Source: a virus. From it: a stretch of 43,417 nt of DNA. Position numbers and translations under genes: made by a program. The DNA is taken from the IMG/VR virus record IMGVR_UViG_3300030450_002935, positions 1 to 43,417 of that record, one strand, 5' to 3'. Position 1 is the stretch's first letter, and each line of letters opens with the position of its first letter. Below are positions 1-43,417 of this stretch, one piece after another. The notes under the pieces are model-generated. The model ran no database searches. It had not been told where the DNA came from and saw only the letters and a program-made list of their open reading frames with translations.

Positions 1-749
1 GAAAAAACTGGAACTGGTGAAGGACAGTATTTCTCGCCAAGCCAGAGACAACTTTTCGCCGCTGGTGGTGATCCTTTTTTTGATTTTGGCCTTAACGTCA
101 CTGCAGGTTCGTTAGAACTCAAGAGGTTAATAACTGGTGAAGGTCAAATAGATCCGAAAGAAACATTTATTGGTAAGTGGCTTGAGAGCACTAGAGAAGG
201 CTATCAAGAGGCTTTAGGAGCCAAGAATTATTGGGAGATGACTGCAGAGCAGAAGGCTCTCCTTAATGATTTACCTGCTTCTATCGCTGCGAATATTTAT
301 GCAGGAGGAATTCTTGGACTTACAGGAGTTCCTGTCCTTCAGACCTCTTCTGGCCTTTTTAATAAAGCAGGCACTTGGGCAATCGCTATTGGACTAGAAG
401 AGGCCTTGTCTTCTGCTTTTGAGGGACGGGATAAAACAGGTTCTGCTTTTGATTTAGCTCAGCAGATGGGTTTAGATAATCCATTTGCGATTAAGCCTAC
501 TGATAGTTATATGCAGGCTTTTATCAAAGCTGCTACAGGGAATGCCTTTACTGTTGGTCCTCTTGCTGGCGTAGTCAGGGCAGGATTTGAAATACCAAAC
601 ACTTGGAGGTATATCAAAGAGAACGGTATAAAACTCGATATAAACAATGCGCGAACTTGGCTTGATGAAAATGCTATTCAACGATTCGGTTCTTCAGAGT
701 TCTTAGATTTTAATAAGGCTATCGAAGCAGGAAAAAAATTAGCTAGTGA
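1..749. repeat. Left copy of imperfect terminal overlap
   Basis: Bases 1-749 align without gaps to 42669-43417 (offset 42668). By hand I count 49 mismatches (about 6.5 %). Both copies lie in the same frame of the same ejection-protein gene, so the window closes into a circle of about 42,668 bases. Because the copies differ they are not a simple direct terminal repeat. The mismatches are concentrated in the first 650 bases and the last 80 bases are identical. Confidence 0.9.
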
Positions 750-3306
750 TTTTAAATCAGGTCAACTTGTTGAAAACTTAAGTGGAGATCAAGGTAGACA
801 AGTTTCTCCTTCCTCAACTATTCAGCCTGAAGGGGCTACTCGATTGGAGCCTGATGACTCTATTAAAAAAGTTGAAGACCTTGAAGGTGACATTGAATTT
901 AAAGCTCAGGAAGCTGGTCTATCTGTAGATCAAGCTATTCAGAAAGTTTCTGGGGCTACAGAGGTTGATGTTGTTGTTAGAGCAATTGACGAATTGGAAG
1001 ATACCCGTGTTGAGAAAATCCTTGAATCTGAAGGAAGTGTTCTTGATCAACTTAACAAGGAATTATTGGATCAAGATGAAGCAAAACAAGCAGGAATTGA
1101 GGCTAGAAATAATGAATTTAGCATCGACGAAAATCAAACAGCATTTGTTATTCCCGAAGGTACTCGTTTAGGGAGAGCAACTTATGGTGGAGCAAGCATT
1201 GAATTTGCGAACAAGATTGATCACGCAGCTTGGTTATTAAGACCTGGCAGAAAAAGTTACCCTAAGGTAACAAGAACAATCAGAGAACTTGCTGCAAAAT
1301 CAGGCATTGATTTTGATGACATAAGAAGACATGGAGCAAATGTTCATCAGTCGATAAAGGATCAAGTTAAGGAGCAATATGGAACAGCACAAGCATCTAA
1401 TTCAGCTCTATCAGGTCAGACTATTTCTGTACCCGATAAAAGATTTGGCAGAGTAGTTTCTACAGCTAATGCTCCTGATCCTGTTGTCTCTTTTGCTGAT
1501 CAATACAGATCAATGTCTACCAATAATTTATTGGCATTAGCAAATCCAGAAGTAAATCCTAAATTATTTGCTGAGATAAAAACTCGTACAGGGCGTGAAT
1601 TTTCTGAACTTAGAAGAGCTGATGTAATAAGAGGTTTATTAGCTCTAAGAGAACAAGGGGTTACGGTTAGACCCATAGATGCAAAATTCAAATCAGCAAC
1701 AGCAAGAAACAATGCAAAAGTAGATCTTGTTAAAAGAGCTATTGATCAAGGAGAAGTTAGACCTTCATCTTCTACTGTCCCTGAGGCACAGGAATTACCG
1801 TTTAAGCCTGAAGATCGAAACACAACTGTTAGAGATATTGCTAGAGAAGAATTACTTTTATCTCGAAAATATGATGCAATTGATAGAGCTAAAGCAGCAG
1901 GTTTAAAAGAAAAAACTAGGCTTCAAGAAGGTTATTATGATATGCCGCTAGCGGAACAAAAAGATAATGGATTATTAGAAGGTTGGAGTAGGCAGGAGGC
2001 AGAAGCCGTAGAAATAACAGATCTTAATAGACAATTAGAAAGCTTAACTGATGAACTTGAAGGCTTAGAAAGACTGCAAGAAGAACGAACAGGTCGTGGG
2101 TTAGGCAGTAGCGAAGAATTAGATGAAATGATAGCTAGAAACAAATCAGCCAGATATGAAGTTGAAGCTGAATTAGCGCGAATACAAGGTGATGATTCTT
2201 TTGATTTCTCTGCACTTCGTAGTCTTAAGGAAGAAGTAAAAGTGGCAAGATATGATCCTGCAATGATAAGAGTTCTTCAAAATAGACAAGCTTTACACCA
2301 ATTCTTAGCAGACACAGTTAGAAGAATAGGAGGTGAAGATACTAAGTTTACTTTCTTTGAAAGGGTTCAAGAGTTAGAAAAATTTGACGCTCAGTGGGGA
2401 ATTGATAAAACTAACGCAAAGATTGGCGGAGAATATGAAATATTTACTGATCATCTTAGTATATATGAAGTAACTAAAGGCTTAAAACCTTCTGAGATTG
2501 TCGACCGTTTCCAAGTTGCAGCACATGAAAGTTTTCATCGTCTTCAATTCGGTTATTTAACCTTAGAAGAAATGAAGGTTTTCGATACTATAGATGGAGG
2601 GAAAAGATTTAATTTCTATGGTCAACTTAATCCAAATTTGAATACTGCTTTTAAGAGACAAAAAACAGCTTCGATTGAAAAGATGACAGTTGGTTTTCAA
2701 GAATATGCTTTAGCGAGAGCAATGGGAGTTGATCCTTTTGAAAGAGCAATGTTTAATAAAGTTGGAGCATTTTTAGAAGCAACATTCCCTAGAGTAGATA
2801 AGCTTTCATGGGTTGATGGAAAATTCCATCACTTTATCTTGAAAGTAATGTCTGGCTTTGATCGTATATTTGAGGCTACTAGAAGAGTTGGTAATTATAT
2901 GCAAGGGAGAGGTTTTAATAGTGTTGATAGTATTTATGAAGCTGCATATTCTGGAAAGATCGCAGAGACCAGAAGGTTTAATAGTGTCCTTGATGCTATA
3001 AACAAGTCAGAAATAGAGGTACAAATGAATCAAATAATGGATAGGATTGCGCGAAGAAATCAAGAAAGAATAAAACCTGGCCTCACTAAAAAAGACTCAA
3101 CAAGGCTTACACGTTTGAACAACAGAGATCAGGCTAAGATAGAAGCTCTATCTAAAAATTATGCTGACGGAACTAAAAAAAGTGACATCCTAAATCGTTG
3201 GTCAACTGATAATGAGAAGTTTTTAAAATGGTTAGAGGAGCGAAAAACAATAAAACAAAACCGAATTACAGAACTTAAATCCCTTGCCCTTAATGGAGGT
3301 TGCTAA
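1..3306 (+). CDS. Large internal virion (ejection) protein, C-terminal part, with zincin-like HExxH motif
   Basis: The frame is open from base 1, so this is the 3' portion of a gene whose start lies at 42234 near the right end. Joined across the overlap it would encode about 1246 residues, close to T7 gp16 (1318). It follows gp14- and gp15-like genes, as gp16 does in T7, so a role in the ejected core or trans-envelope channel is likely. The sequence is mostly charged and helical with coiled-coil-like stretches. At bases 2524-2538 it reads HESFH, an HExxH zinc-metallopeptidase signature, in the context VAAHESFHRLQFG. A glutamate-rich helix (EKMTVGFQEYALARAMG) about 50 residues later could supply a third ligand. 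I do not see a T7 gp16-type transglycosylase motif. The in-frame ATG at 238 is internal. The next gene has its Shine-Dalgarno inside the end of this one. The ejection role is inferred from order and size; protease activity is inferred from the motif. Confidence 0.75.
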   Translation, partial: EKTGTGEGQYFSPSQRQLFAAGGDPFFDFGLNVTAGSLELKRLITGEGQIDPKETFIGKWLESTREGYQEALGAKNYWEMTAEQKALLNDLPASIAANIYAGGILGLTGVPVLQTSSGLFNKAGTWAIAIGLEEALSSAFEGRDKTGSAFDLAQQMGLDNPFAIKPTDSYMQAFIKAATGNAFTVGPLAGVVRAGFEIPNTWRYIKENGIKLDINNARTWLDENAIQRFGSSEFLDFNKAIEAGKKLASDFKSGQLVENLSGDQGRQVSPSSTIQPEGATRLEPDDSIKKVEDLEGDIEFKAQEAGLSVDQAIQKVSGATEVDVVVRAIDELEDTRVEKILESEGSVLDQLNKELLDQDEAKQAGIEARNNEFSIDENQTAFVIPEGTRLGRATYGGASIEFANKIDHAAWLLRPGRKSYPKVTRTIRELAAKSGIDFDDIRRHGANVHQSIKDQVKEQYGTAQASNSALSGQTISVPDKRFGRVVSTANAPDPVVSFADQYRSMSTNNLLALANPEVNPKLFAEIKTRTGREFSELRRADVIRGLLALREQGVTVRPIDAKFKSATARNNAKVDLVKRAIDQGEVRPSSSTVPEAQELPFKPEDRNTTVRDIAREELLLSRKYDAIDRAKAAGLKEKTRLQEGYYDMPLAEQKDNGLLEGWSRQEAEAVEITDLNRQLESLTDELEGLERLQEERTGRGLGSSEELDEMIARNKSARYEVEAELARIQGDDSFDFSALRSLKEEVKVARYDPAMIRVLQNRQALHQFLADTVRRIGGEDTKFTFFERVQELEKFDAQWGIDKTNAKIGGEYEIFTDHLSIYEVTKGLKPSEIVDRFQVAAHESFHRLQFGYLTLEEMKVFDTIDGGKRFNFYGQLNPNLNTAFKRQKTASIEKMTVGFQEYALARAMGVDPFERAMFNKVGAFLEATFPRVDKLSWVDGKFHHFILKVMSGFDRIFEATRRVGNYMQGRGFNSVDSIYEAAYSGKIAETRRFNSVLDAINKSEIEVQMNQIMDRIARRNQERIKPGLTKKDSTRLTRLNNRDQAKIEALSKNYADGTKKSDILNRWSTDNEKFLKWLEERKTIKQNRITELKSLALNGGC

Positions 3307-3308
3307 CC

Positions 3309-6300
3309 ATGTCTACTTGCGATGAAATTTTCCAAGAGATTCAAAAACTACAAAGAGAAATTGATGAACTAGATAAGTCAAGGATTCTTTTCGATAGGCT
3401 TGCTTCTCCAAAACCTGATCCTGACCCTATAAAAATTGAAGGGCCAGACGGAAACGAAGTTGAAATCGACGTTGAACAAGCTTTTTATCGAATGAGCAAT
3501 GACCCTGAGAATGTTGAAGCATGGGCTCAACGAGCAATAGGTCAAAGAGCTAAGGCGGCTGGAGCAGAAGGTGTCTTTCAAAATGTAGACCAACTGGTAA
3601 GAGAACTAGGAGAATATGAAGCACAGAAAATGCTTCGTATTTTTCAGGCTGCGACAGGTGATTGGGAATTTTATTTTCCAAAGGATTTTGAGGCCATTAC
3701 TTCTAAGATTGATATAGATAAAACAAAAGAGTTGTTGATTTCTTCTGCTCAGCAAGTCGGAGTAGATTTAAACAGAGGGACTTTAGATAGAGCAATTGCA
3801 GTAAATTTGGCTCCTTTCCAATCCATACTTGAGAATCACACAAGACTGCAAATAATGAGAGATTGGTCTAATACAACGCTTCGAGTAGAAATAAAACGCT
3901 TGACAGACGAAATTAAGAACACAGGAGTTTCTACGCCTCGAATTAAGCAGCAAGTTCTTACTAAATGGAAGACAGCAATTTTTGCTCAACGTGCTCTTTC
4001 TATTGCGAAGAGAAGATGGGGTCAGATGGGAAAAAATCTTCAAGCAATAGGAGGGAAAGATTTATCAAAAGAAATTGATACTCTTTATAGAGAAACAGGA
4101 ATTGAAAGTAAAACTGATCTTGTGAACAATGCTGAAGAGATAGCTACATCAACAATTGCAGATTTCACCAGTGAAGATAGTTTAATCACTAAAGTTGTTC
4201 AGGCTGCAGATAGAGGTGTTGATGGAATTAAAGAGCTGGAAGAGATTCAAGCAGTTCTTAAAATAGAAGGAGCAGATCCAACAATAGATCTTGATGCACA
4301 ATGGGACGCTACTTGGAGGCGTTACGCTAGAGCATCTATTAAAGATACTTTATTCTTTGCTTTCAAGTCACAAGTTATTAATAACTGGCTTCAAAACAAA
4401 GTAGTTTATGCCGCTGAAGGAGTGAAGTCTTTTGCTGCAACAACAGCAGAGTTGACAGGTGCTCCTTATAGGGCGTTTACGCAAAGAAATTTACCGGAAA
4501 TCCAAGGTGATTTATTCACACCACATGGAACAGCTTTCTCTCGTAATTTCTTAAAGGCGGTGTTTGAGTCAGGAAGGATGCATCTCAGAGGTCATTTAGT
4601 AGTTGATTCCATGATGAAGCACACTGTTAAAGAGATTTTTCAAGAAAATTTCTTTGAGGGAAAAACTCCTTTTGGAGGTTCTATTGACAAGGTAAACAAC
4701 CAAGTAGGAATGTTGAGTCTTGAAGAGCAGGCAAAGGTTGGAGATTCAATAATGGAGACTCCATTGAGACTTGAAGATGTTGCTAGTTTAGATAATAATT
4801 CTGTTGTCTTGGCAAGTTATAAACTTCATGTAGGAGTAAAAAGATTCATCAGTGGCTTGATAGATAAAGAAAATAAGTTACCTCTTTTTAGTGCATTGCA
4901 AATGATGCAATTAGTTGATCATAGAATTGGCAAGCGAGCATTTTTAGTTAAAAGACATTTAGATTTAACTCTTGAGGCAGCAAGGCAGAATCCAACTCTA
5001 AAAGTTGATCAATGGGCTGATATTGCAGATACCAAAATATCCGACGAACTTTACCAAGCTACTCCTACCAAGGAAAATATTACTGCTTATAGAAAACAAT
5101 ATGGATTAGACAAAAGTGTTAGTGACAATGATATTTCAGAAGCAATTGCTATGGATAAAGTTGGTTATCCAGTTCTGTCCAATGCAGCTCAACAGGCGGC
5201 ATATAGTCAATCCTATGGGATGAGAATGCAAGAAGATCTACCAGGCGTAGGTCTACCAGGAGGACAAGCTGTTGATAACTTGGTAAGTCGCATTAGAAGA
5301 AACGAAATTGTAGATGTAGCCGCAATACCTGTCTGGAAGACTGCTTCAACTTCGGCTGTCTATAACTTCATTTTAGGCAATCCTCTTTGGTCGGCAGCAA
5401 GAGTTAGTAAGGCTGTTTATCACGGATTTAAAGGAACTTTGACAGACGATATGGTTAGACATGCTTATGCATCATCTTTTACTGCTGCTGGGATGATGTC
5501 TATGTTTATGCTTTTAGATAGTCAGGGTCAAGTTGTTGGCAATGGACCGCCTCCAGGTACTGAGGCTTATAGCAACTGGAGCCAAAAATTAGAGAATGAA
5601 GGTAAACAACCTAATAGCATTTTTGGAATACCTTGGGCCTTTGGCAATCTTCCTATCGTAAGCACTATGTTTATGTATAAGGACTTTATGGATGCAGGTA
5701 AATTTGCTACTTCAAACAAATATGATCGCATAGAAATTCTTGATGCGTTCTCAATGGTTCTAACAGGACAGCTTATGAGAACTCCTTCTTTCAAGCTTTT
5801 TCATAATCTTTTCGACGCATTAAATGATACTTCTGGAAATGCTTATCGTACTTTATGGGAAACAGGTGCTTTTGCTGTTTCTCCCCTCTTTACTCCTTCT
5901 GGGCCTTTAAGAGACTTGGGCGCAATTACGGGTACAAGTAGAAGTGATCTTTATCGTCCTAGTGGCAGTGAAACTCCTGCAACAAGGGAATATATAGATA
6001 AAGCTTGGGGTCCAGATCATCCTATAACTATTGCGAATAATTGGTTAAGAGAAATCACGTATAGTATGGCCCCACAAATTAGTGGTCTTCCTACTAAGGA
6101 ACACACATGGTTAGGGCGTCAAATTGCTAGACCTGATGGTCATATAGGCGAGTGGTTGATAGGTCAGCCAGGTTTATGGCATGGAGAAGGCAGTAATAAA
6201 GTTGAAATGATATTGGATCAATTGCAGCTTTTAGATCCTCCTAGTGAAATCTTGACTCAAAGAATAGGTGATATTCCTATCACACCTGAATTAACTAAGT

Positions 6301-6788
6301 TATTAAATTATAATTTAGGCCATGTAACAGCAGATGGTTATATAACAGATCAGGACGCTGCTGTTTCGGCTTTTTCTGATGGTAGTCCCAGGAAAATACT
6401 TAATTTTACTGCTCAACAAATAACAATAACAGGTGCTGTTCAGCCACAAACAATTCCACTAGATGTTACTAATCTATTAAATAGAGTAACCAGTGGAAAC
6501 ACTTTACGCGAAGCTCTTGCTGCTCTTTTTGAGAGTACTGAATGGAAAGATTGGGAAAGAGATAGCAGCCTTTCTATAAATCAAGAAACAACTAGAGCGA
6601 GGATTGATCAATTACCAGGACCAAGAGTTGTCAAAATCTTGATTGATTTTTACAGGGCTAAAGCCATTAGAGAAACAATTGAGTCTGGTCATCCCGATGC
6701 AGATTTGTATCGACGAAGGCTAGAGGCAGCAAGGGAGTTTGAAGCGGGCCAGGGTGTTCAGGACTTACCGCAATTATTTGGTTACTAA
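3309..6788 (+). CDS. Large internal virion / ejection protein (second gp16-sized protein)
   Basis: Encodes 1159 residues. I chose ATG 3309 because GGAGGT sits 8 bases upstream; the frame also allows TTG 3300. The N-terminus is a coiled coil (EIQKLQREIDELDKS), followed by long alpha-helical, Arg/Lys-rich segments. One moderately hydrophobic stretch near residues 720-740 (SFTAAGMMSMFMLLD) might insert in a membrane. No enzyme motif is recognised. It directly follows the gp16-like gene and precedes the tail fibre, in the place where T7 has only gp16 before gp17. It may be a second core component, or the C-terminal half of a split gp16-type protein. The function is inferred from position and size only. 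Confidence 0.7.
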   Translation: MSTCDEIFQEIQKLQREIDELDKSRILFDRLASPKPDPDPIKIEGPDGNEVEIDVEQAFYRMSNDPENVEAWAQRAIGQRAKAAGAEGVFQNVDQLVRELGEYEAQKMLRIFQAATGDWEFYFPKDFEAITSKIDIDKTKELLISSAQQVGVDLNRGTLDRAIAVNLAPFQSILENHTRLQIMRDWSNTTLRVEIKRLTDEIKNTGVSTPRIKQQVLTKWKTAIFAQRALSIAKRRWGQMGKNLQAIGGKDLSKEIDTLYRETGIESKTDLVNNAEEIATSTIADFTSEDSLITKVVQAADRGVDGIKELEEIQAVLKIEGADPTIDLDAQWDATWRRYARASIKDTLFFAFKSQVINNWLQNKVVYAAEGVKSFAATTAELTGAPYRAFTQRNLPEIQGDLFTPHGTAFSRNFLKAVFESGRMHLRGHLVVDSMMKHTVKEIFQENFFEGKTPFGGSIDKVNNQVGMLSLEEQAKVGDSIMETPLRLEDVASLDNNSVVLASYKLHVGVKRFISGLIDKENKLPLFSALQMMQLVDHRIGKRAFLVKRHLDLTLEAARQNPTLKVDQWADIADTKISDELYQATPTKENITAYRKQYGLDKSVSDNDISEAIAMDKVGYPVLSNAAQQAAYSQSYGMRMQEDLPGVGLPGGQAVDNLVSRIRRNEIVDVAAIPVWKTASTSAVYNFILGNPLWSAARVSKAVYHGFKGTLTDDMVRHAYASSFTAAGMMSMFMLLDSQGQVVGNGPPPGTEAYSNWSQKLENEGKQPNSIFGIPWAFGNLPIVSTMFMYKDFMDAGKFATSNKYDRIEILDAFSMVLTGQLMRTPSFKLFHNLFDALNDTSGNAYRTLWETGAFAVSPLFTPSGPLRDLGAITGTSRSDLYRPSGSETPATREYIDKAWGPDHPITIANNWLREITYSMAPQISGLPTKEHTWLGRQIARPDGHIGEWLIGQPGLWHGEGSNKVEMILDQLQLLDPPSEILTQRIGDIPITPELTKLLNYNLGHVTADGYITDQDAAVSAFSDGSPRKILNFTAQQITITGAVQPQTIPLDVTNLLNRVTSGNTLREALAALFESTEWKDWERDSSLSINQETTRARIDQLPGPRVVKILIDFYRAKAIRETIESGHPDADLYRRRLEAAREFEAGQGVQDLPQLFGY

Positions 6789-6855: not shown

Positions 6856-8499
6856 ATGCCACTGTCATATTCAACCCATACAGGGGACAATACAACTTCG
6901 ACTTTTACTCTTGGCTTCGGGAGTAATTATTTAGTAAAGAGCCATGTCAAGCTCTATTACGGGTACAACATTTTAGATGGTACATATACAACTCTTTTGG
7001 TCGATGGCACTGATTACAACTGGACTAGCGCGACGCAAGTTCAACTAATTGATACTGATGGGTCTCCTAAGAATTTAGCCACAGGAGTTGTCTTAACTCT
7101 TATTCGAGTTACTCCAAATAGTTCTCAGTTGTCAGCCTGGAGCGACGGTTCAAATCTCACGGCTGAAGCATTAAACAATGCTGATTTGCAAAATCTATAT
7201 GTAATACAAGAACAGCAAGATCGTAATGACGCAGGAATCACCCAATCCACTGCTGCAAAAACCTCTGCTGATTCTTCTGCAACGACTGTTAGCACATTAA
7301 GCAGTACACAATTTAGAACCGATGGATCCCAGGCTATGACTGGGAATTTAGATGTAGGTAATAACAAGATTGAAAATTTAGCTGATCCAACAGGAAACAA
7401 TGACGGTGCTAATAAAAAATATGTAGATGATCAAGTTGGAGCAACATCGACGAATGCCACTAATGCGGCTACTTCTGCCAGTAATGCGGCAACGTCGGCC
7501 ACCAATGCAGCTTCTTCTGCGACAAGTGCCTCGACTTCGGCCACGAATGCAGCTTCTTCTGCGACCACTGCTACTACTCAAGCCAGCAATGCGTCAACGT
7601 CGGCCACTAATGCTGGTTCATCTGCTACTACTGCTTCCACTCAAGCAAGTAATGCTTCGACATCAGCGACAAGTGCCTCCACTCAAGCCAGTAATGCCGC
7701 GACCTCTGCAACTAATGCGGCCAGTTCTGCTACAGATGCAGCAACTGCAAAGGCAGCCGCGGAAAGTGCAAGAGATTCTGCTTTAGCTTCGCTGGATAGT
7801 TTTGACGATCGTTATTTAGGAGTAAAGAGTGCAGCTCCCACTGTGGACAACGATGGAAATGCATTAGTTGCAGGTGCTTTGTATTACGACGATGGGACTA
7901 CAAACACTCAGGGGATGAAGGTTTATACGGGGTCAGCTTGGGATGCTGCTTATGTTGCAGGAGGTTCCTATCTTGCTTTGTCAGGCGGAACTATGACTGG
8001 TTCGATTGCTTTTTGGGCTAGTCAACCGACTGCAAGTACATCTGATCCAAACATTGTTCAATTAGAAGACAGCGTTTCTAGTACAAGTACAACAAAAGCT
8101 GCGACTCCTAATAGTGTTAAGACCGCATACGACAAAGCTAATGATGCTTTACCTAAGGCAGGAGGAACACTAAGTGGGAATGTTGATCATTCTGGTAATG
8201 GCTATTTTCAATTACCTGTTGGTAGTGATGCTCAAAGACCTTCGACGCCTCAAGCCGGATGGGTAAGAGCGAATAATGATAGTAATCAATTTGAGGGTTA
8301 TATCAATAGTGCGTGGGGGCCATTAGGAGGTGGAGCTGCTGGAGGCGGAGGAGAACAAATCTTCCATTTAAGTGAGCAAGAAATGAATAATTCTTATACG
8401 GTTCCTAGTACAAAAAATGCGGGAGTTTTTGGCCCACTCACGATTGCTTCAGGCGTTGTTTTAGAAATAAGCTCGTCTTCTGTCTTAAGTGTGGTTTAA
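6856..8499 (+). CDS. Tail fibre protein (T7 gp17-like N-terminus)
   Basis: Encodes 547 residues. Residues 1-125 match the T7 tail-fibre N-terminal domain that docks the fibre to the tail: a PLSYSTHTGDNTTSTFTLGF opening, a GTDYNW segment, then a helix with NNADLQNLYVIQEQQDR. Residues about 195-300 are a low-complexity Ala/Ser/Thr/Asn region of short repeats (variants of SATNAASSAT), probably a trimeric coiled shaft. This is followed by fibre-repeat-like segments (ALSGGTMTGSI, LPKAGGTLSGNV) and a Gly-rich linker (GGGAAGGGGEQ). The C-terminus is short, so receptor binding may be done by the separate fibre-like proteins encoded just downstream. Confidence 0.9.
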   Translation: MPLSYSTHTGDNTTSTFTLGFGSNYLVKSHVKLYYGYNILDGTYTTLLVDGTDYNWTSATQVQLIDTDGSPKNLATGVVLTLIRVTPNSSQLSAWSDGSNLTAEALNNADLQNLYVIQEQQDRNDAGITQSTAAKTSADSSATTVSTLSSTQFRTDGSQAMTGNLDVGNNKIENLADPTGNNDGANKKYVDDQVGATSTNATNAATSASNAATSATNAASSATSASTSATNAASSATTATTQASNASTSATNAGSSATTASTQASNASTSATSASTQASNAATSATNAASSATDAATAKAAAESARDSALASLDSFDDRYLGVKSAAPTVDNDGNALVAGALYYDDGTTNTQGMKVYTGSAWDAAYVAGGSYLALSGGTMTGSIAFWASQPTASTSDPNIVQLEDSVSSTSTTKAATPNSVKTAYDKANDALPKAGGTLSGNVDHSGNGYFQLPVGSDAQRPSTPQAGWVRANNDSNQFEGYINSAWGPLGGGAAGGGGEQIFHLSEQEMNNSYTVPSTKNAGVFGPLTIASGVVLEISSSSVLSVV

Positions 8500-22014: not shown

Positions 22015-22881
22015 TTAAGCCGCCTCTCTTAGCTTCGTCAAAGCATCAAATGCCTTTGCGTGCTGGTCGTGTGGCATGTGAACGTACCTCTGACACATCT
22101 GTTCAGAAGAATGTCCAAGCCAAGCAGCTATCTCCAAACTAGAGCATCCTCGCCTTCCTAACCGCGTCGCGCATGTGTGTCTTGTTGCTTTGATAATAAA
22201 TGTTTTATGAATCCCGCATCTCTCTAGAGATTTTTTTACCTGGAAATACAATTCATTTTTGTCAATTTTCCAAACTTTTATTGAGTTAAGTTTAGGAACC
22301 TGTAGCTTGGCTATGTCAAACGCAAGAGGAGTTAAAGGAAGAACTCTATTTGCAGTTTTATTGTCATGTGCTCTTTTGAAAAATGTTACTGTTTTGTTTT
22401 TAAAATCATAATCCTCTCTGGTCTGTCTTCTCATCTCTATGGGACGGCATCCCATCTCAATTAAAAAGACAAAAAACCTTGCTATATCAGACCTTCCACG
22501 CCTTATTAAGTCTTCGCATACTGCGTCTATTTCTGGATCCTCCCATACTATGTTCTTGTGATTATCAAGAGTTAAATTGCGAGGCATCTCTGGCAAGTGT
22601 TCAACATCTCCGAAAAGAACTGCCATTTGACGCATAGTTTTTAACGTGCTTATTTTCGCGTTAATTGTTGCATTGGAATTTCCCAATACCTCTGAACAAT
22701 ATTCTCTAAACTTCATTACTTCTTTTGCATTTGCCTCGACAATTGGCATTCCAGGGCCAAGAAATTCAATCAATCCTGTTGCCCTTTGAATAGTTGTATG
22801 GGCAGCCTGTTGGCTTTTCCATTGGGTTGAAACTGCTTTGTTGAAGGCTTGTTTAAGTGTGTAATTTGAGGGTTTGGTCAT
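22015..22881 (-). CDS. int: Tyrosine-family site-specific integrase
   Basis: Encodes 288 residues. An N-terminal core-binding domain (residues about 5-95) is followed by the catalytic domain with Arg in MGCRPIEMRR (R146), KATRHTCATR (R234), LGHSS (H257) and the nucleophile RYVHM (Y266). The usual first His of the H-x-x-R box is Lys here (K231-A-T-R234), a tolerated variation in some integrases. It would catalyse recombination between attP and a host tRNA gene. Its stop codon abuts the tRNA. The ATG is preceded directly by two overlapping copies of ACCACGACCA and lacks a Shine-Dalgarno. It is followed on the same strand by the tRNA and RNA polymerase. Confidence 0.92.
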   Translation of the reverse strand: MTKPSNYTLKQAFNKAVSTQWKSQQAAHTTIQRATGLIEFLGPGMPIVEANAKEVMKFREYCSEVLGNSNATINAKISTLKTMRQMAVLFGDVEHLPEMPRNLTLDNHKNIVWEDPEIDAVCEDLIRRGRSDIARFFVFLIEMGCRPIEMRRQTREDYDFKNKTVTFFKRAHDNKTANRVLPLTPLAFDIAKLQVPKLNSIKVWKIDKNELYFQVKKSLERCGIHKTFIIKATRHTCATRLGRRGCSSLEIAAWLGHSSEQMCQRYVHMPHDQHAKAFDALTKLREAA

Positions 22882-24824: not shown

Positions 24825-24900
24825 TGGGAAATTGTGTGGTCGTGGTTTGATGTCTTAAGAAGACATCAGGGAGCCCCGAAGGGCTCCGTGATGGCATCAA
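24825..24900 (-). promoter_or_regulatory. Intergenic hairpin cassette A
   Basis: Reading the minus strand after the clamp-like gene: CATCA-C-GGAGCCC-TTCG then the complementary GGGCTCC-C-TGATG (hairpin 1). This is followed by hairpin 2 with perfect 9-base arms TGATGTCTT/AAGACATCA separated by CTT, then AACCACGACCA, 12 bases, and ATG 24824. It is one of four full copies of the same module between early genes. Confidence 0.75.
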
Positions 24901-25563
24901 TCAACGAATTAGAACTGGCATCAATAGATATTCCAGTTCTAAATTTTCTAACCGTTTAACATTGCAAGTCGCTGTAAATACAACCGGAGTAGAGCAAGTA
25001 TTAAAGGCCATTTTTATTGGTCCTTTTGAACATTTTTCTACTGATTTGCAGAATTCTCCAATGTATTTAGGGTTAAAAGCTATTGGTTTGCCAGGGTTAT
25101 TAGTGAAAGAATCTGGTATCAAACTAACAATGTCAGGGTAAGTCCCTTTAAAATCAATTGATTGAAATTTTCTTTCTAGTAACTCGTTAGAGTTACCTTT
25201 ACCCCCGATAAAATCCAATGATTTATCAAGATTGATAATGACATCTTTGGCAAGTCTCACTTGCTTTTTTAATAGCCTTGCGTCTATCTTCAAACCTTCC
25301 GAGCTATTGACCTTGTAAAAGTCATTAGCTGGTTTGAAATTTGAAGGAATAACAAACCTAAAAAGCCTATGCCCATCAGTTGACTGAATTTCAATACCTT
25401 TGCTTGACTTAGTTACATAGACACAGTTAAGCAAAAGCTTTGCAGCGTCAGTACTGGCGAATTGGGCCGCAAGATGAAGGATTGAAGCAGGCAAGCAGGC
25501 ATTAATACCTGAGAGTTTCCCTGAGGCTTGGTAAATTGCCTCGGGTTTAGATGTGGTAGTCAA
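24901..25563 (-). CDS. Truncated DNA polymerase III beta sliding clamp-like protein
   Basis: Encodes 220 residues from a TTG start (AAGG upstream, no ATG in frame). Residues about 20-150 resemble DnaN domain 2: LPASILHLAAQFAS, then LLLNCVYVTKSSKGIEIQSTDGHRLF with the TDGHRL signature (62-67; E. coli T172-L177), and FKGTYPDIVSLIP (138-150; E. coli VDGRFPDYRRVLP). Only about 10 residues later comes IAFNPKYIGEF (161-171; E. coli IGFNVSYVLDV) and the end YLLMPVLIR (E. coli YVVMPMRL). Domain 1 and the first half of domain 3 are therefore absent (E. coli: 366 residues). The pieces retained form the cleft that binds client peptides of Pol III, Pol IV and MutS. The phage lacks a DNA polymerase, so this protein may recruit, tether or titrate host replication factors. 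It stands alone between two hairpin cassettes. The homology is judged by eye. Confidence 0.72.
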   Translation of the reverse strand: MTTTSKPEAIYQASGKLSGINACLPASILHLAAQFASTDAAKLLLNCVYVTKSSKGIEIQSTDGHRLFRFVIPSNFKPANDFYKVNSSEGLKIDARLLKKQVRLAKDVIINLDKSLDFIGGKGNSNELLERKFQSIDFKGTYPDIVSLIPDSFTNNPGKPIAFNPKYIGEFCKSVEKCSKGPIKMAFNTCSTPVVFTATCNVKRLENLELEYLLMPVLIR

Positions 25564-25640
25564 ATTAAATACCTTGGTCGTGGTTAGGATGCCTCTATTA
25601 AGAGAACATCAGGGAGCCCCGAAGAGCTCCGTGATGTCAT
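25564..25640 (-). promoter_or_regulatory. Intergenic hairpin cassette B
   Basis: Minus strand after ardA-like gene: CATCAC-GGAGCTC-TTCG-GGGCTCC (hairpin 1 with a U-G wobble). Hairpin 2 is GATGTTCTCT-TAAT-AGAGGCATC, with CTCT/AGAG and GATG/CATC pairs, then AACCACGACCA and 11 bases to TTG 25563. The arm sequences differ from cassette A but pairing is kept. Confidence 0.75.
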
Positions 25641-26219
25641 CTATTCAAAGACTGCATAGCCTTGATCTGGTATAAATTCAGCGGACCAACTATTGCAGTG
25701 AAACTCGCCATTCCAAACGCTTTCCCAGTCGATATAAGACCATAAAGGCCCTTTCTCTTCTTCACGGGTCATGCTTTCATACCATTCCTCTGCAAAGTCA
25801 GCGGCTTTATCCCAAATACCGTGATATTTGTCTCGAAATTGTTCTTCAGTTGGCGGTTCTTTCTCTGACCAATGATGCTCACAAAAATATTTATAAGCCA
25901 TTAAGTCAGAGTCACTAAAACCTTTTGCTGTTTGGACATAATCAACTAAATCTTGAAGATTTGGCCATTCAGTACCAACTAAACAACTACCAGACAAACC
26001 CTCGTAGTCATGCATTGCCCATTCTTCAGCGCCTAAGGCTGGAGAATGTTCGATGATGTGGTCTATGCATTCTTCAATGTCCTCGACACTTTCGCATAGT
26101 TCTAGGTTCACCCAGGAGCCATGCAAGATGCCTTCGTTATATGCACTAAGACAGGCAAAGTAAGCGTTAAACCTTTCACCGTGTCCTAATGCTGCTGGTC
26201 TAGCTTTTACAGTAGACAT
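25641..26219 (-). CDS. ardA: ArdA-like antirestriction protein
   Basis: Encodes 192 residues, very acidic. It shows ArdA hallmarks: FNAYFACLSAYNEGILHGSWVNLE near the N-terminus, HSPALGAEEWAMHDYEGLSG (the conserved AEEWxIHDYEG box), LAxFAEEW-type helix ADFAEEWYESM and WSYIDWESVWNGEF (YIDYE-like) near the C-terminus. ArdA dimers mimic B-form DNA and block type I restriction-modification enzymes. Placement in the first-transcribed minus-strand genes fits protection of incoming DNA. The start ATG has AAAGG and an ACCACGACCA motif 11 bases upstream. Confidence 0.9.
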   Translation of the reverse strand: MSTVKARPAALGHGERFNAYFACLSAYNEGILHGSWVNLELCESVEDIEECIDHIIEHSPALGAEEWAMHDYEGLSGSCLVGTEWPNLQDLVDYVQTAKGFSDSDLMAYKYFCEHHWSEKEPPTEEQFRDKYHGIWDKAADFAEEWYESMTREEEKGPLWSYIDWESVWNGEFHCNSWSAEFIPDQGYAVFE

Positions 26220-26290
26220 AGTTAATCCTTTGGTCGTGGTTAATGCTGAGAAGAACCCAGCAGGGAACCCCTAAGGGCTCCGTGATGGGA
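26220..26290 (-). promoter_or_regulatory. Intergenic hairpin cassette C
   Basis: Minus strand: CATCAC-GGAGCCC-TTAG-GGGTTCC (hairpin 1, G-U wobble). Hairpin 2 has TGCTG and CAGCA arms, then TTAACCACGACCA and 11 bases to the ATG of the ArdA-like gene. The order of elements is the same as in the other cassettes. Confidence 0.75.
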
Positions 26291-26578
26291 TCAATACAAA
26301 CGAAAATTAATTAATTCGGGGACTGCGTCTAATACTTCATCCTCAGTTGTGTAAACCAAATCTTCAAAGCAGTAGAAACAATCCTCAAACCTGTCCCCGT
26401 AGGGATCGACAAGGAAAAAACATTCCTCGCCCTCTTCGTTCTTGGTTTCTTCAATCGTGAAACCTGTTGCGACTTCTAAGAAATACGCATACTTCTTTCT
26501 TCTCTCTTCTTTACTTAGAGGCATTAGCTGCTTGAAGTAATGCCAGAAAAGAGCTCGCAAACGCTCATAAGTAAGCAT
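26291..26578 (-). CDS. Small acidic hypothetical protein
   Basis: Encodes 95 residues. A basic helical N-terminus (YERLRALFWHYFKQLMPLSKEERRKKYAYFLE) is followed by a very acidic, Cys/Phe-rich C-terminal half (YGDRFEDCFYCFEDLVYTTEDEVLDAVPE). There is no Shine-Dalgarno; ACCACGACCA lies 11 bases before ATG. It neighbours ArdA and shares the acidic character of DNA-mimic counter-defence proteins. That role is speculative. Confidence 0.65.
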   Translation of the reverse strand: MLTYERLRALFWHYFKQLMPLSKEERRKKYAYFLEVATGFTIEETKNEEGEECFFLVDPYGDRFEDCFYCFEDLVYTTEDEVLDAVPELINFRLY

Positions 26579-26647
26579 TGGTTTTTGTTTGGTCGTGGTG
26601 TGTGCTGGTGAACCCAGCAGGGAGACCCGAAGGCCTCCGTGATGGAA
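26579..26647 (-). promoter_or_regulatory. Intergenic hairpin cassette D
   Basis: Minus strand: CATCAC-GGAGGCC-TTCG-GGTCTCC (hairpin 1), then hairpin 2 with TGCTGG/CCAGCA arms around GTTCA, CACACCACGACCA and 11 bases to ATG 26578. Arms in hairpin 2 are changed on both sides relative to cassettes A and B while pairing is preserved. Confidence 0.75.
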
Positions 26648-26920
26648 TCAAACCATTGAAGGAGCTTTCTTTAGCCCGTGTTTTCGCGCTAATTCAGCTA
26701 TTGAAGGAACTTTCTTTAGGCCTTCGTTGTATTCGATGATTGGCTCTTGGTCCTCTTCATCCATCTCAAGACAGTTGATTGCATCCTGTGCAAACTGTTC
26801 AAGACTTTCTTCTCTATCAACGTGAATCTCTAGGTCACTTAACAGCCCTTCTGGGTCGTCTTTGTAAGCCTCGAAGATTATCCTCAATAGGAATGATGAA
26901 GGAACTCGTTTGACTGTCAT
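26648..26920 (-). CDS. Small acidic protein with C-terminal direct repeat
   Basis: Encodes 90 residues, the first gene of the minus arm. An acidic middle (DLEIHVDREESLEQFAQDAINCLEMDEEDQEPI) is followed by two copies of a short basic repeat: GLKKVPSIAELARKH and GLKKAPSMV. The underlying DNA is also repeated. There is no Shine-Dalgarno; ACCACGACCA lies 13 bases before the ATG. As the first minus-strand gene entering transcription it may act on host RNA polymerase or defence, but no family is recognised. Confidence 0.65.
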   Translation of the reverse strand: MTVKRVPSSFLLRIIFEAYKDDPEGLLSDLEIHVDREESLEQFAQDAINCLEMDEEDQEPIIEYNEGLKKVPSIAELARKHGLKKAPSMV

Positions 26921-42233: not shown

Positions 42234-43417
42234 ATGTCGGAATTAAGGACGCTTGGTGCAAATGAACAGATACCTACTTCACCTGGATATAAGATTGATT
42301 TTTCTCCGCCTTCAGAAGAGGAACAGCAACCTGGATGGTTTGATTTTCCTATCGAAGTTATAAAACAGCTCTGGGAACTGCCAGGGAATTATCAGAGGGT
42401 AGCCAAAGAGTTTGATATTGATTACACAGCCACAGGAGCCCATCGTGGAGGAGTATCAGGAGCTCTTTGGGGGGACAAAGGCGTAGCCCCTGGAGTAAAC
42501 GAAAAAGGAGAGTTTGATTGGTGGCAATTGATATTCCAGATGCTTACAGGTGGTTCTAGTTCGGCTCAATATATAGGTGGAGAGTCTCCTGGAATTCCTG
42601 TTAGCACTGGGTCAACTGCAAGCTTTATTGAGACTGGGCGACAACCCCTGCCAATTTATAAAGATGAAACTGAAACTGGAACTGGTGAAGAAAATTATTT
42701 CTTGCCAAGCCAGAGACAACTTTTCGCCGCTGGTGGTGATCCTTTTTTTGATACTGGCCTTAACCTCACTGCAGGTTCGTTACACCTCAAGAGGTTAATA
42801 ACTGGTGAAGGTCAACTAGATCCGAAAGAAACACCAATTGGTAAGTGGCTTGAGAGCACTAGAGAACTCAATCAAAAGGGTTTAGGAGCCAAGAATTATT
42901 GGGAGATGACTGCAGAGGAGAAGGCTCTCCTTAATGATTTACCTGCTTCTATCTTTGCGAATATTTATGCAACAACAATTCTTGGATTTACAGGAGTTCC
43001 TGTCCTTCAGACCTCTTCTGGCCTTGTTAACAAAGCAGGCACTTGGGCAATCGCTATTGGACTAGAAGAGGCCTTGTCTTCTGCTTTTGAGGGACGGGAT
43101 AAAACAGGTTCTGCTTGGGATTTAGCTCAGCAGATGGGTTTACCTAATCCATTTGCGATTAAGCCTACTGATAATTATATGGAGGCTTTTATCAAAGCTG
43201 CTACAGGGAATGCCATTTTTGTTGGTTCTCTTGCTGGCGTAGTCAGGACAGGATTTGAAACACCAAACATTTGGAGGCATGTCAAAGAGAACGGTATAAA
43301 AGTCGATATAAACAATGCGCGAACTTGGCTTGATGAAAACGCTATTCAACGATTCGGTTCTTCAGAGTTCTTAGATTTTAATAAGGCTATCGAAGCAGGA
43401 AAAAAATTAGCTAGTGA
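42234..43417 (+). CDS. Large internal virion (ejection) protein, N-terminal part
   Basis: Starts MSELRTLGANEQIPTSPGYK and is open to the right edge (394 codons). It is the 5' part of the same gene whose 3' part fills 1-3306. The first 145 residues are unique to this end; residues 146 onward duplicate the left edge at about 87 % amino-acid identity. An acidic Pro-rich start (FSPPSEEEQQPGWFDFPIEV) is followed by a small-residue hydrophobic segment (ASIFANIYATTILGFTGVPV) that may contact membrane. It follows the gp15-like gene, so a gp16-like core role is likely. I see no lytic transglycosylase motif in this N-terminus, where T7 gp16 has one. Confidence 0.75.
   Translation, partial: MSELRTLGANEQIPTSPGYKIDFSPPSEEEQQPGWFDFPIEVIKQLWELPGNYQRVAKEFDIDYTATGAHRGGVSGALWGDKGVAPGVNEKGEFDWWQLIFQMLTGGSSSAQYIGGESPGIPVSTGSTASFIETGRQPLPIYKDETETGTGEENYFLPSQRQLFAAGGDPFFDTGLNLTAGSLHLKRLITGEGQLDPKETPIGKWLESTRELNQKGLGAKNYWEMTAEEKALLNDLPASIFANIYATTILGFTGVPVLQTSSGLVNKAGTWAIAIGLEEALSSAFEGRDKTGSAWDLAQQMGLPNPFAIKPTDNYMEAFIKAATGNAIFVGSLAGVVRTGFETPNIWRHVKENGIKVDINNARTWLDENAIQRFGSSEFLDFNKAIEAGKKLAS
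42669..43417. repeat. Right copy of imperfect terminal overlap
   Basis: Gapless counterpart of bases 1-749, in frame, with 49 differences. Of 35 differing codons only two are synonymous (both AAT/AAC). It marks the closure point of the assembly rather than a packaging end, since it falls inside a coding region. Confidence 0.9.

Follow-up and report, generated by a model that had tools for sequence, protein, structure and literature searches.

The two ends of the window, by which we mean the whole stretch of 43,417 nucleotides analysed here (IMG/VR record IMGVR_UViG_3300030450_002935), carry two versions of one segment of a single gene, and these versions differ almost exclusively by amino-acid-changing substitutions. 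The explanation that we consider probable is that two strains of a marine podovirus coexisted in the sample, that an assembly at k=77 joined a branch from one strain to the circular genome, and that residues 146–369 of a gp16-like protein have been under positive selection. A metaSPAdes-type assembler working at this k would have closed a circle of ~42.7 kb via strain B's version of the gene, retained the 672 bases of strain A as a branch into the same 77-base node, and written out branch and circle as one contig, the ends of which therefore overlap inexactly.

The inexact terminal overlap and its origin in assembly

Positions 1–749 align with 42669–43417 without gaps. The 49 mismatches fall into 35 altered codons, 33 of them non-synonymous and two synonymous (both AAT/AAC), and codon positions 1, 2 and 3 are hit 26, 16 and 7 times, respectively. 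Both copies are free of stops in frame 0, and the other frames contain many. Our recount reproduced exactly the figures given in the initial annotation (mismatches, codons, their division into 33 and 2, codon positions, no indels and no stops), and the codons that it cited as examples (GGA GGA to ACA ACA and TTT to CCA) are correct. The first four mismatches occupy bases 1–4 at the cut edge, where a hidden indel is possible, and are less certain; the blastn alignment of the contig ends starts at base 5. The last mismatch lies at base 672 and is followed by exactly 77 identical bases, the second long identical stretch being one of 85 bases at 364–448. The parts of the overlap are as follows.

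1..672, + strand: version A, very likely the second haplotype branch, corresponding to codons 146–369 of the rebuilt gene and holding all 49 differences (from the alignment and the k-mer node)
364..448, + strand: 85-base identical run within the overlap, where the paths also meet at k=77; second copy at 43032–43116
673..749, + strand: first copy of the 77-base identical run, a node of the k=77 graph with two entries and one exit
42669..43340, + strand: the segment in version B, running on without interruption from the 5' part of the gene at 42234–42668 (from the alignment)
43341..43417, + strand: second copy of the 77-base identical run, which is the final k-mer of the contig

Eight values of k were tried (21, 33, 55, 77, 79, 99, 127 and 141), and only at k=77 does the final k-mer of the contig coincide with a branching node (positions 673 and 43341). 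End overlaps, exact or inexact, were also sought in seven long relatives retrieved via the major capsid protein: two of them have exact k-mer repeats at their ends (77 bases in a relative of 42,936 bases and 127 bases in a relative of 42,461 bases) and five have none. Both 77 and 127 are standard k values of metaSPAdes. The 77-base junction, the restriction of the branching node to k=77 and the terminal repeats of the two relatives together indicate that positions 673–43417 represent one turn of a circle and positions 1–672 a second haplotype. The circle measures 43,417 − 749 = 42,668 bases, which is similar to the relatives. That the overlap is a product of assembly is well supported, and it is very likely that the two versions are real haplotypes; the possibility of a chimeric contig delivering both of them, raised in the initial annotation, is borne out by the 77-base junction.

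Contigs produced by metaSPAdes share ends of the maximum k length at forks (COBRA paper, PMC10914622). Our contig resembles such cases in that its final 77 bases recur elsewhere in the same contig, and differs from them in having 672 bases of a strain branch ahead of the circle. As a result, the ends show no exact repeat and IMG/VR lists the record as linear. In virus catalogues, a second haplotype can thus be concealed where the ends of a contig match inexactly, and complete genomes possessing such ends get filed as linear.

A putative ejection protein gene in the gp16 slot

When 42234–42668 is joined to 1–3306, a gene of 145 + 1101 = 1246 codons is obtained. Its parts and neighbours are the following.

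42234..43417, + strand: first 394 codons of the putative ejection gene (5' part), in version B, beginning with ATG
1..3306, + strand: rest of this gene up to the stop codon
38465..42172, + strand: upstream neighbours, namely an internal virion protein resembling T7 gp13 (phrog_308), followed by the products of the gp14 and gp15 slots (these two labels are by gene order)
3300..6788, + strand: second large protein, between the putative ejection gene and the tail fibre gene (6856–8499)

The structural module runs from terminase through portal, scaffold, capsid, two tail-tube genes, the match to the internal virion protein family and the gp14 and gp15 slots to the 1246-codon gene, the second large gene and the tail fibre gene. 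This T7-like gene order, with the gene placed between the gp13–gp15-like genes and that for the tail fibre, assigns it to the gp16 slot, and we infer that its product is a putative gp16-like ejection protein. Searches of PHROGs, Pfam and PDB gave no match to it at the level of family, sequence or fold. The structure model of residues 1–394 is helical and of low confidence (mean pLDDT 63.6), so that its fold matches are not meaningful, and the nearest homologues are ~40% identical over the part compared. The label of ejection protein used in the initial annotation accordingly holds as far as gene order is concerned, and finds no counterpart in sequence, family or fold.

The ejected proteins of T7 and P22 form a DNA channel through the cell envelope (PMC10883804, PMC8954989). 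Phage P22 evades the exclusion protein SieA through changes in its ejection proteins gp16 and gp20, whose genes rank with the most variable virion genes in the P22 group (PMC10883804). The protein of the window is similar to T7 gp16 and to P22 gp16 and gp20 in gene order, in its size of ~1250 residues and in its fast divergence; it differs from them in having no detectable sequence or fold match, in being followed by a second large gene, and in the HExxH motif that its relatives carry near the C-terminus (PMC8954989, PMC10883804). By analogy with these systems, residues 146–369 would most plausibly come into contact, as the DNA is injected, with a variable factor belonging to the host envelope or acting in exclusion.

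The HExxH motif (AAHESFH, AGHEAFH or AVHEPFH) is conserved near the C-terminus, at residue 987 of the rebuilt protein, and was found in every full-length relative checked (L106, L107, L111, L112, L114–L117 and L119–L122). As it has the form seen in zinc metallopeptidases, the motif possibly marks a candidate protease that would be injected together with the DNA. The third-position GC content of the gene (42234–43417 plus 750–3303) changes from ~0.30 in codons 1–375 to 0.14–0.21 in codons 376–1125, which is possibly an old recombination border.

Evidence for selection between the two versions

The comparison of versions A and B yields dN of 0.084 and dS of 0.020 by the Nei–Gojobori method (dS of 0.017–0.018 by two other methods), and the dN/dS ratio is about 4.2–4.8. 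With dS this low, the two versions would be recently split haplotypes, driven apart over residues 146–369 by positive selection. When the observed types of substitution were placed at random in 20,000 trials, two or fewer silent codons were obtained in 0.07% of the trials (P 0.0007) and 35 or fewer altered codons in none, the real changes being more crowded into codons than in any trial. The third-position count also deviates from random placement (P 0.002–0.004), and adjacent changes lie within codons rather than across codon borders in a ratio of 12 to 1 (P 0.04). The ratio of 33 to 2, the crowding into codons and the position of adjacent changes inside them all point to selection acting on amino acids.

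A part of this signal comes from codons with more than one change, which make up 11 of the 33 altered codons if the first two are excluded. When they are set aside as single events, the remaining 22 one-step codons, two of them silent, give a marginal P of 0.03–0.06 against neutrality; tested against dN/dS of 0.35–0.5, the same codons give P of 0.00003 to 0.0015. In the homologue alignment, the columns of the differing sites are somewhat more variable than the rest (P 0.02), and these sites show no enrichment in helices of the low-confidence model (25 of 33, against 177 of the 249 residues overall). Exchanges between G and C account for 21% of the changes in the pair (10 cases), compared with 9–15% in the relatives. 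Where the versions differ, A shares 9, 9 and 8 residues with the three nearest homologues and B shares 4, 4 and 6, and since A agrees more often, B may be the more derived version, which is a weak indication given that two of the three homologues are close to each other.

The absence of positive selection would have to be reconciled with these figures by assuming that two real haplotypes are under relaxed constraint (dN/dS near 1) and that multi-nucleotide mutations have inflated the number of changed codons. The share of multi-hit codons, which are common in the relatives' copies of the gene too, and the marginal result for the one-step codons agree with this assumption, but adjacent changes stay inside codon borders, and the gene is constrained in the relatives, so that its sudden release in an intact frame would be odd; we consider this explanation rather unlikely. 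Noise of assembly or sequencing at one contig end is improbable. Contig ends are often weak, and the lack of stops alone has a probability of 0.12–0.15 under random change, but the scarcity of silent codons, the third-position count and a codon clustering beyond all trials are not what random differences would give; furthermore, there are no indels in 749 bases, and paths of 672 bases with 7% random error are not kept by k-mer graphs. The very low dS beside dN might also mean that silent differences were lost, either because reads were corrected to match the major strain or because an overlapping gene or RNA element constrains silent sites. This is quite improbable, as three mismatches have no neighbour within 20 bases where ~2.3 are expected by a hand estimate, i.e., isolated mismatches are not depleted, the other frames are full of stops, and the silent divergence of the gene among relatives equals or exceeds that of the neighbouring genes.

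A truly linear genome with two diverged partial copies of the gene at its ends would be in line with the class given by IMG/VR, but in this case neither end copy would be a whole gene, and both the relatives, with a single intact copy inside the structural module, and the 77-base junction make such an arrangement very improbable. Targeted diversification, for example by a diversity-generating retroelement, could be suspected from the preference of the changes for the first two codon positions, but it is hardly credible: no reverse transcriptase was found, there is no template repeat of the segment elsewhere in the window, and the differences are scattered across 672 bases. On these grounds the retroelement, the overlapping gene, the read-correction bias and the true duplication were set aside.

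Diversifying selection is, in our opinion, the best reading of the differences, though not a proven one, as it concerns a single pair chosen after the fact. The same claim in the initial annotation is favoured by the dN/dS of the pair and by the random-placement test, and is weakened by the result obtained without multi-hit codons and by the values seen in relatives. We place roughly even weight on the wider proposal that intense and recent diversifying selection acts on residues 146–369 of the ejection protein between strains living side by side, in an arms race taking place in the host envelope at DNA injection and not at the receptor.

The gene in related phages and other genome features

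The dN/dS comparison across related phages suggested in the initial annotation did not reveal the same effect elsewhere: the ratio is about 0.05–0.87 and never exceeds 1 over 249 codons, the maximum of 0.87 being reached among 197 windows of this length. Only scattered windows of 60 codons rise slightly above 1, and dN/dS above 1 was not seen to recur in related lineages. In pairs of relatives whose silent divergence is close to or a little above that of our pair, dN/dS is 0.18–0.38, and the difference between our pair and four such pairs pooled has a Fisher P of ~1e-9, a figure that is indicative only since the pairs share sequences. The ejection gene and its neighbour IVP2 are the fastest structural genes among the relatives; with no 249-codon comparison there going beyond the maximum given above, the pair from the window stands out as an outlier for this fast-evolving gene. 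Searches of IMG/VR for close relatives of the ejection gene, the middle part of this gene and IVP2 found none, and no close DNA relative of the ejection gene was found in phage records.

Among the relatives, the otherwise near-identical phages L038 and L041 differ in codons 502–605 of the ejection gene (37% amino-acid identity, dS 0.8), and the near-identical flanks of this block of ~100 codons indicate its exchange by recombination within the gene. In L039 and L044 the head proteins are 99–100% identical while IVP2 and the ejection gene share 40% and 34% identity, respectively; the whole ejection module appears to have been swapped between these close phages.

Marine viral genes with raised pN/pS are mainly tail and receptor-binding genes (PMC6832022). 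Our case resembles them in that changes of amino acids are over-represented in the variation within populations of marine viruses, and differs in that it involves an internal, putatively ejected protein and 224 codons, compared within one pair of haplotypes rather than through read mapping. A search of the literature on positive selection in internal virion proteins returned nothing directly relevant. If confirmed, the pair would show strong diversifying selection acting on an ejection protein in nature, in parallel with the way in which P22 escapes SieA, and would suggest that a marine host has an undescribed exclusion or envelope factor.

The genome also encodes a T7-type RNA polymerase, a primase-helicase, a single-strand binding protein and a 5' exonuclease, as well as a possible processivity factor at 24901–25563; a search of the window with PF00476 for a DNA polymerase, limited to family A, was negative. 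Four intergenic direct repeats of ~65 bases, 81–83% alike (24837–24901, 25575–25644, 26229–26294 and 26588–26651), precede small genes of the early region and are possibly promoters or operators. A tyrosine recombinase (phrog_1 integrase) is encoded at 22015–22881 on the minus strand of this otherwise lytic-looking T7-like genome.
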